Shown here piece after piece: positions 3,000 through 3,648 of a DNA stretch of 64,000 bases. Source of the stretch: Rhodoplanes sp. Z2-YC6860 (GTDB lineage: Bacteria; Pseudomonadota; Alphaproteobacteria; Rhizobiales; Xanthobacteraceae); contig NZ_CP007440.1 in assembly GCF_001579845.1 (NCBI RefSeq), positions 3,866,029 through 3,930,028 on the forward strand, given 5' to 3'. The stretch's first letter is position 1. Each line of letters begins with the position of its first letter. The notes under the pieces are model-generated. The model had not been told where the DNA came from. It saw only the letters and a list, made by a program, of their open reading frames with translations, and did no database searches. Both the position numbers and the translations under genes were made by a program.

Positions 3000-3244
3000 G
3001 GCACGCTGTTCCCCGCAGGCACCATAGCAGGTTGTCAGGCGTGCAGAAGTGCGGTGTGAGAGCGCGAATGGGTTTAATAAAGCCGATCAGGCCGTGGTCC
3101 CATCGCCAGGGAGGCAGAACTAACACGCAGGAATGACGAGTAATTTGCGAGCAATTAACGGGCCGGCTGCGGTTTAGGAGACTGTTTAGTCTGAAATGGC
3201 GACGGCGTTGCCGATGCGAACGAATTATGTAAATTCGCCGTGAT

Positions 3245-3321
3245 GGCCGGGTGGCGGAGAGGATACGCGAGAGGCCCGCAAACCTCATTAGCCTTGGTTC
3301 AATTCCAAGGCCCGGCCTCCA
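3245..3321 (+). tRNA. Degenerate tRNA-Cys-like element (GCA)
   Basis: A tRNA-like unit of 77 nt ends in encoded CCA after a U discriminator, a hallmark of tRNA-Cys. The 5' GGCCGGG pairs perfectly with CCCGGCC. The T arm has loop TTCAATT on a 6-bp stem, or equally an 8/5 acceptor/T split using a U-G pair at 3252/3310. The anticodon stem has only four pairs, GAGG with CCTC, plus an A-A mismatch. Its loop is 8 nt, CCCGCAAA, holds GCA and lacks U33. The D stem is about 3 bp. It is either a tRNA-Cys pseudogene or an unusual tRNA. Confidence 0.6.
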
Positions 3322-3474
3322 TCGTTTCCCTGATGTCGACGGACTCTCGGTGCAGCGTTCGCGCTTGCAGGGCGCGTGACCACGCGCTGATCGCCAAAGG
3401 CTTCACATTAATGAAGCGTCGCATACCGCGCCTGTAGGGCAGCGATCTGCGCGACATGACAGTCATTCGCCACA

Positions 3475-3648
3475 CTAAATAGGCTTTTGAGGCTGCTGCT
3501 GTTGCAAGACCTGGACACGTTTCCAGGTGTGATGCCCACATGGCTCACAGAAAAACACCCTGTGGCCAGGTTCTCGGCCCAGGGGCTGGATTTCGGTGGA
3601 AAAGGTCGTTGGGCCTGCGCAGTGTTCGCAGGGAACTTGGTCCGGCAT
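3475..3648 (-). CDS. 57-residue four-cysteine zinc-ribbon-like protein
   Basis: A small frame of 57 residues with two CxxC knuckles, CEHC near residues 7-10 and CEPC near residues 34-37, about 24 residues apart. That spacing fits a zinc ribbon. The tail is Gln- and Pro-rich. Start ATG is at 3648 and stop TAG at 3475. I do not recognise a named family. It lies in a run of small hypothetical genes on the same strand. The metal-binding role is inferred from cysteine spacing only. Confidence 0.62.
   Translation of the reverse strand: MPDQVPCEHCAGPTTFSTEIQPLGREPGHRVFFCEPCGHHTWKRVQVLQQQQPQKPI

Follow-up and report, generated by a model that had tools for sequence, protein, structure and literature searches.

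The window considered in the present work is the whole stretch of 64,000 nucleotides spanning positions 3,866,029 to 3,930,028 of contig NZ_CP007440.1 of Rhodoplanes sp. Z2-YC6860, whose genome is a single contig of 8.19 Mb. On its forward strand, at positions 3245-3321, the window harbors a tRNA-Cys-like gene that folds into a full cloverleaf of 77 bases, encodes its own CCA end and has an anticodon loop of eight nucleotides. Comparison with its relatives places this element in a conserved family of second tRNA-Cys-like genes, and the odd tRNA-Cys was shown by the same comparison to represent a real, structurally constrained second tRNA-Cys family with a remodelled loop. The neighbors of the window copy are ordinary, i.e., a 2-hydroxyacid dehydrogenase gene and, farther off, those for ribosomal protein S21 and tRNA-Glu.

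The acceptor stem (GGCCGGG/CCCGGCC) and the T stem (CCTTGG/CCAAGG) of the window copy are both perfect and add up to a stack of 7+6 = 13 bp; an 8/5 partition, which is the one drawn by ARAGORN, needs a U8·G pair, and the best fold is 7/6. The anticodon loop, CCCGCAAA, has 8 nt and lies on a 4-bp stem with an A-A mismatch at its base; it embeds GCA, which is preceded by C, U33 thus being missing. The initial annotation of the window had described this loop, stem and mismatch, which the ARAGORN drawing reproduces, as well as the perfect acceptor and T arms, the U73-CCA end as in tRNA-Cys and the 13-bp stack (7/6 or 8/5), all of which the sequence bears out. The likeness to tRNA-Sec-type folds proposed on that occasion is weak, and a tRNA-Sec-like identity was rejected: the variable region comprises about 4-5 bases, so that a long variable arm is missing, and 13 bp are not found throughout the family. 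The stack is 7/5 in many relatives and U33 is present in most of them; according to these data, the 13-bp stack and C33 are traits of the subgroup of the window copy and not of the whole family. Positions 32 and 38 of the window copy form a C·A combination that leaves the loop open at 8 bases, and, because two other genomes of the genus (loci L003 and L004) share the same open form, it is considered to be a stable subform. The bacterial cysteine identity set, as given in PMC9976931, consists of U73, G2-C71, C3-G70, G34, C35 and A36, and all these elements are present in the window copy.

The call made by ARAGORN coincides exactly with 3245-3321(+), its type being 'tRNA-???' and its anticodon 'cgca', i.e., unassignable. 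The generic tRNA model of Rfam scored 26.4 bits (E = 0.002 in a 401-base stretch), which is below the cut-off of 29 bits and explains why the copy is absent from the gathering-threshold Rfam scan of the window. The minimum free energy computed with RNAfold is -32.9 kcal/mol (z = -1.70; 11 of 200 shuffled sequences fold as well), and the z of the canonical tRNA-Cys is -1.12; in view of these two values, the folding energy was not used as an argument. Given the mild z and the sub-threshold Rfam score, the case for the element rests on comparison and conservation. A full-length match of the window copy to sRNA-Xcc1 (RF02221; 18.9 bits, E = 1) was taken as due to chance; that model was listed neither for a Bradyrhizobium copy nor for the second copy of the source genome. 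A scan of window positions 3000-3500 for promoters and terminators, covering the sigma-70 type only, did not retrieve anything.

Table 1. Parts of the tRNA-Cys-like element (positions of the window) and loci of the associated Gly-like tRNAs.
Feature	Position	Strand	Remarks
Whole element, tRNA-Cys-like, 8-nt anticodon loop, encoded CCA	3245..3321	+	ARAGORN, covariance model, relatives, second genomic copy
Acceptor stem, 5' strand GGCCGGG	3245..3251	+	G1, G2 and C3 in the Cys identity set as given in PMC9976931
D arm	3254..3268	+	Stem GCG (3254-3256)/CGC (3266-3268); D-loop GG retained in the window copy
Anticodon arm	3271..3286	+	Stem GAGG (3271-3274)/CCTC (3283-3286), loop CCCGCAAA (3275-3282); covariation in relatives
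GCA triplet	3278..3280	+	Kept in 98/99 distinct relatives
T arm	3292..3310	+	6-bp CCTTGG/CCAAGG, loop TTCAATT
Acceptor 3' strand CCCGGCC, U73 (3318), CCA (3319-3321)	3311..3321	+	U73 in 99/99 distinct relatives
Gly-like tRNA family	L082 (relative +945), L086, L122, L145, L162, L223; also L303-L310

The source genome harbors another odd copy (copy 2, C1:4341454-4341532(-)), 86% identical to the window copy, whose anticodon arm consists of five stem pairs (CGGGG/CCCCG) plus inner TT/AA pairs around CCGCAA. It also harbors a canonical tRNA-Cys(GCA) at C1:3979449-3979522(-). The covariance model R1, which was built from 17 sequences and also matches the canonical tRNA-Cys at a lower score, assigns 93 and 86.5 bits to the two odd copies and 76.4 bits to the canonical gene. 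Probing 12 genomes, including the source genome, with the Pfam model of the catalytic domain of cysteinyl-tRNA synthetase (CysRS) retrieved one strong match (at least 360 bits) from each of them; the remaining matches are partial, reach at most 43 bits and, as we infer, represent related synthetases.

BLASTN matches were found in 5 out of 11 genomes of the genus (source genome included) and in 17 out of 296 genomes of the bacterial family, and two other members of the genus harbor relatives (94% and 91% identity) that share the 8-nt loop. The R1 search was carried out on 291 genomes of the family with a completeness of at least 90%, 285 of which gave at least one match at E <= 1e-9. None was found in 6 genomes, one in 93 and two or more in 192; the last figure is a hand count by subtraction that includes the canonical gene, with most of the second matches not read base by base, and a single match may be either the odd or the canonical form. 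All genomes assigned to Bradyrhizobium gave two matches each, except for G324. At the stricter threshold of E <= 1e-12, 278 out of 389 genomes of the class matched; among the matches listed, the genomes outside the family have one match each (except for G422 and G452, with two each), and only five matching genomes belong to other families of the same order. The matches outside the family that were checked are 74 nt long, the same as the canonical gene. Moreover, a pattern scan of named genomes gave at least 120 loci, and the 80 pattern matches listed include Bradyrhizobium, Nitrobacter, Afipia, Tardiphaga, Rhodopseudomonas, Pseudolabrys and Pseudorhodoplanes. The odd form thus appears to be confined, as far as sampled, to the one alphaproteobacterial family to which the window genome belongs. 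A phage or a plasmid origin was rejected, the window copy having no match in the phage collection and a Bradyrhizobium copy none in the plasmid collection. No description of the family was found in the titles and opening lines of the open-licence full-text literature, and it may have been described elsewhere; the primary account of tRNAs with novel cloverleafs, that of Mukai et al. (2017), is covered by the review PMC7609411.

Compensatory changes indicate that the family is maintained. In 52 distinct anticodon arms of equal length, 93.7% of the cells are paired, versus a mean of 80.6% in shuffled alignments, and 60 cells are doubly changed, versus 15.3 (none of 500 shuffles as high); sliding the partners of the arm abolishes the signal. 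Two coarser measures on the same arms give weaker signals, with double changes in 6 out of 7 pairs (28/500 shuffles as high) and 18 further pair types (11/500), and the pair 32:38 alone shows six standard pair types. Over the whole cloverleaf of the 17 founding sequences, 98.0% of the cells are paired and 32 are doubly changed, versus 8.9 in the shuffles (0/500 as high); the further pair types are unremarkable in this set (153/500). Furthermore, in a set of 17 loci retrieved with BLAST or the covariance model, the tRNA has a mean pairwise identity of 0.89, versus 0.40 upstream and 0.39 downstream; within it, the first acceptor strand reaches 1.0, the T arm together with the 3' acceptor strand 0.96, and the D and anticodon arms about 0.8 each. 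The profile of 44 Bradyrhizobium-like loci gives 0.77-0.98 for the tRNA outside the pattern-fixed blocks, except for the D loop (0.64), with flanks mostly not above 0.6 and one upstream block at 0.70; two blocks at 1.00 are an artefact of the letters fixed by the search pattern, a choice that the 17-locus profile avoids. In both profiles the loci were found by similarity, which somewhat favors the contrast between tRNA and flanks.

These data bear on the possibility that the element is a pseudogene, i.e., the relic of a duplicated tRNA-Cys, or a chance cloverleaf. Such an origin would agree with the Rfam score below the cut-off, the A-A mismatch, the position of the window copy away from the common locus, the unremarkable folding energy and the 6 out of 11 genomes of the genus without a BLASTN match; however, the same-genus relatives share the 8-nt loop, compensatory changes have accumulated, the tRNA evolves more slowly than its flanks, and two or more R1 matches recur in 192 of the sampled family genomes by the hand count given above. 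We therefore regard a relic as highly improbable, and a chance fold was ruled out by the conservation together with the compensatory changes, which speak for the 'non-standard tRNA' among the options of the initial annotation and, for the family, against its 'pseudogene'. That annotation had also coupled two observations as contrary to a functional element, a canonical tRNA-Cys elsewhere and a rapid decay of the locus in relatives: the former was found in the source genome, the latter was not.

The features that the family keeps or relaxes were counted on two sets. The first contains 121 sequences, a filter over all loci having given 122 distinct ones, from which the canonical gene of the source genome was left out; 55 of them form a subset whose loci were found by BLAST or the covariance model and not by a letter pattern. 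The regular expression used for the 121 sequences required the 3' end and paired or nearly paired ends; the counts of U73 and CCA were therefore taken only from the second set. The latter derives from 120 pattern loci, one of them cut by a contig end, and contains 99 distinct sequences; its search pattern fixed GGCCCGGTGGCGGA, ACGC and CYTGGTTCRA and left the anticodon and the 3' end free. For the canonical tRNA-Cys, 47 out of 50 loci were read, 26 of them distinct; the reading pattern fixed a 7-nt loop, so that loop length is no test in this comparison.

All 99 distinct relatives have U73, G70 and at least six of the seven acceptor pairs, and both GCA and the encoded CCA are found in 98 of them. 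According to these counts and to the published identity set, what CysRS reads is kept in the family, save a wobble at 2-71 in 22/99. A single member (L195) has GTGTAA in its loop instead of GCA.

The regions read by the rest of the translation apparatus look different. The D-loop GG, present in 26/26 distinct canonical tRNA-Cys, is found in only 31 of the 121 family sequences (lost in 90) and in 22 of the 55, and the D-loop insert ranges from 4 to 12 bases. The T-stem pair 51-63, one of those (49:65, 50:64 and 51:63) that set the affinity for EF-Tu (PMC11231383), reads U-A in 53 and A-U in the other 2 of the 55 sequences versus C-G in all 26 canonical ones. Compared with the canonical loop (20 of the 26 distinct sequences have CUGCAAA and the other 6 UUGCAAA, the form being fixed by the reading pattern), the family carries one extra base on the 5' side of the anticodon, which gives 8 nt. 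Of the 120 loops that could be scored, 98 have U, 19 have C and 3 have A directly before GCA (U33 in 39, C in 15 and A in 1 of the 55); directly after it, at position 37, A is found in 86, T in 31 and C in 3 (A in 49, T in 4 and C in 2 of the 55). In 101 of these loops, positions 32 and 38 pair with each other in the Watson-Crick or G-U manner, so that six bases are enclosed, e.g., GUGCAA, GUGCAU or CCGCAA.

An enlarged loop raises the possibility of a recoding tRNA, decoding Cys or a four-base site and causing or allowing +1 frameshifting at particular messages. An extra anticodon-loop base is the hallmark of the well-studied +1-frameshifting tRNAs as described in PMC7803779, and U33 and A37 are retained in much of the family; however, no four-base anticodon is conserved, the bases flanking GCA vary, the usual 32:38 pair closes a 6-base loop, G18G19 is often lost, and T occupies position 37 in 31 of the 120 loops, where virtually all natural tRNAs have a purine according to the same source. 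We consider recoding unlikely. Since the features read by the synthetase are kept and those read by the ribosome are changed, the family may instead carry cysteine outside ordinary protein synthesis. Our preferred reading, held tentatively and with a little less than even confidence, is that the element is a Cys-accepting tRNA diverted from ordinary decoding and serving as a Cys donor or as a charge signal. The same pattern of conservation, with its relaxed core, would equally fit a regulatory tRNA mimic acting as a decoy, either uncharged or by binding CysRS, a processing enzyme, a tRNase or a charge sensor; in this case GCA and U73 would be kept for the binding of CysRS, and the retention of GCA despite the remodelled loop agrees with this. 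Conversely, the encoded CCA in nearly all relatives suits a chargeable RNA, and we hold a decoy, which the initial annotation had listed as a regulatory tRNA mimic, to be rather doubtful. Any explanation other than a donor, a decoy, a recoding tRNA or a relic appears very improbable.

As for the genomic location of the family, 142 loci extend 900 bp or more upstream of the tRNA, and in 113 of them a gene for an S-adenosylmethionine-dependent methyltransferase (Methyltransf_11 in Pfam; 40-100% identity to the query) on the strand of the tRNA starts no more than 1 kb ahead of it. Of the 81 loci that extend 3 kb or more downstream, 74 have carB within these 3 kb, and both genes are present in 86 out of 152 loci. 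In 11 of the 12 loci read in detail, the tRNA starts 55-124 bases past the methyltransferase stop codon; the twelfth is without that gene there. Because the two flanking genes recur across loci, the order carA-cupin-(dps)-methyltransferase-tRNA-carB was taken as the probable ancestral one. A Bradyrhizobium-like locus of the type carA-cupin-dps-methyltransferase-tRNA-carB is also embedded in record JAUEPE010000011.1 (L168), titled Frankia sp. RB7, whose organism name is probably wrong. A role as leader of carB was rejected, CarB being absent within 3 kb in 7 of the 81 loci, and so was an obligate methyltransferase-tRNA pair: a homologue of the methyltransferase (E of 1e-60 or better) occurs in G071, G027 and G016, three genomes in which R1 has only one match, and in the window's genome this gene lies 1.66 Mb away with no tRNA beside it. 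For both of these reasons, the linkage looks inherited, not obligatory. The window copy, copy 2 and two copies from sister genomes have essentially nothing in common beyond the tRNA at corresponding positions, from which we infer that the gene has relocated in this genus. The initial annotation had noted beside the window copy a run of small hypothetical and decayed genes that would fit a tRNA-associated accessory region, for which we found no support: the 3' end has no second copy in the window at up to three mismatches, which led us to discard an integration site, and there is no integrase among the eight window proteins scanned, the whole window not being annotated.

ARAGORN, run on the 152 loci (1,020 kb), retrieved nine other tRNAs, seven of which are odd. 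Six of the seven form a single Gly-like family, whose anticodon loop has 6 bases (TTCCAG or TTCCAA), and lie near the Cys-like gene in three Nitrobacter records, one further record, G139 and G118 (Table 1). The first Gly-like type was found by BLAST in 8 of the 291 family genomes, with one match each, and in 8/8 a Cys-like odd tRNA is placed within 1 kb of it, at 105-870 bases in seven genomes and 107 in the eighth. The T stem of the four Gly-like sequences typed has C49-G65 and A51-U63, versus G49-U65 and G51-C63 in the three canonical tRNA-Gly of the source genome; G18G19 is retained. According to PMC4052509, G49-U65 and G51-C63 are strong EF-Tu pairs, replaced in the non-proteinogenic tRNA-Gly of Staphylococcus aureus together with G18G19, and the isoacceptors concerned may escape to cell-wall synthesis. 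The linked Gly-like tRNA, having lost two strong EF-Tu pairs, suggests that a process in the genomes concerned draws on Cys as well as on Gly.

Other tRNA-like sequences were observed as well. G139 (L081) and G090 (L303) harbor a second Cys-like tRNA paralogue with a CCGCAAA loop on a 6-bp stem. The seventh odd tRNA, L002:1781-1850(-), belongs to the source genome and lies about 200 bases upstream of odd copy 2; it has a 5-base anticodon loop, no encoded CCA and 43.9 bits with the tRNA model of Rfam. Further Gly-like odd candidates without an ARAGORN call are L091:3998-4071(-) of the source genome (35.7 bits with the same model) and two with mismatched stems in the Bradyrhizobium genome G330 (L106 and L110; 47.7 and 30.7 bits). 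Lastly, L111:4001-4141(+) contains a tandem pair of tRNA-like sequences; the anticodon loop of the first is very short and surrounds GTGA, and the acceptor stem of the second is incomplete in the model match.

According to our preferred reading, that of a Cys-accepting tRNA diverted from decoding, the odd tRNA-Cys would most likely be transcribed and processed, and the only clear CysRS would charge it with cysteine via U73, C3-G70 and G34C35A36, as predicted from the published identity rules and the near-invariant positions. It would be a poor substrate for EF-Tu and for the decoding site, given that an extra base precedes the anticodon, that 32:38 is usually paired, that G18G19 and U33 are often and the purine at 37 occasionally lost, and that the 51-63 pair is changed. 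The Cys-tRNA, kept from routine translation, might then act as an amino-acid donor or a charge signal for a non-ribosomal step. A broader version would see a clade-wide dedicated Cys tRNA, charged by the ordinary synthetase, exempt from decoding, accompanied in some genomes by a linked and likewise dedicated Gly tRNA, and feeding a tRNA-dependent non-ribosomal pathway that is as yet undescribed; we propose it with more reserve, as a possibility well short of even. Several observations weigh against these proposals. U33 is retained in most members, and the window copy is normal at the D-loop GG (G18G19) and at A37. Position 71 is C in 77 and U in 22 of the 99 sequences, which weakens one identity pair. 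The Gly-like partner is limited to 8 of the 291 genomes, seven of which belong to one genus, probably Nitrobacter, and are thus not independent. Finally, the 8-nt loop alone decides nothing, because the yeast mitochondrial tRNA-Thr with such a loop does decode (PMC7609411).

Members of the family are common among bacteria that have been well studied as soil inhabitants, phototrophs or nodule formers, and the genetic tools at hand would thus suffice to test the proposals. The outcome would be either a cysteine pathway of a new, tRNA-dependent type or a tRNA that naturally causes frameshifting or recoding; in addition, the family reveals the tRNA features retained by selection where charging may be required and ordinary decoding is not. 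Natural tRNAs with 8-nt anticodon loops are rare, the yeast mitochondrial one being a known case, and few systems are known in which tRNAs are dedicated to non-ribosomal work.

Among the known systems closest to the odd family is the canonical tRNA-Cys(GCA), whose gene (L034) is carried by the same genome: the GGCC start, the D stem, GCA, U73 and CCA are shared, whereas the canonical form has a 7-nt loop, the D-loop GG and C51-G63, and the odd family has 8 nt, often no GG, and U51-A63. Anticodon loops of normal length are also those of the non-proteinogenic tRNA-Gly of S. aureus. The latter are, like the odd tRNA-Cys, second isoacceptors; G18G19 is replaced and T-stem EF-Tu pairs are altered in them, which may have a parallel in the odd family, the window copy itself keeping G18G19, and their charging by the ordinary synthetase is the working mode that we propose here; however, they carry glycine and are known to feed peptidoglycan bridges, whereas the amino acid would here be cysteine (PMC4052509). 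An extra anticodon-loop base is shared with +1-frameshifting tRNAs such as SufB2, which are described as laboratory-selected suppressor mutants (PMC7803779), whereas the loop of the odd tRNA-Cys is natural, conserved and usually paired at 32:38. The yeast mitochondrial tRNA-Thr(UAG) also has a natural loop enlarged to 8 nt, although it decodes reassigned CUN codons in mitochondria and differs in origin and identity (PMC7609411). Finally, the selC* tRNA-Cys and the allo-tRNAs are, like the odd family, minor noncanonical bacterial tRNAs, and selC* keep U73 and often GCA; according to PMC7609411, they have 8/4 or 9/3 stacks and a longer variable arm, the former together with serine-type features marking allo-tRNAs, whereas the stack is 7/6 in the window copy and 7/5 in many of its relatives, with a short variable region throughout.
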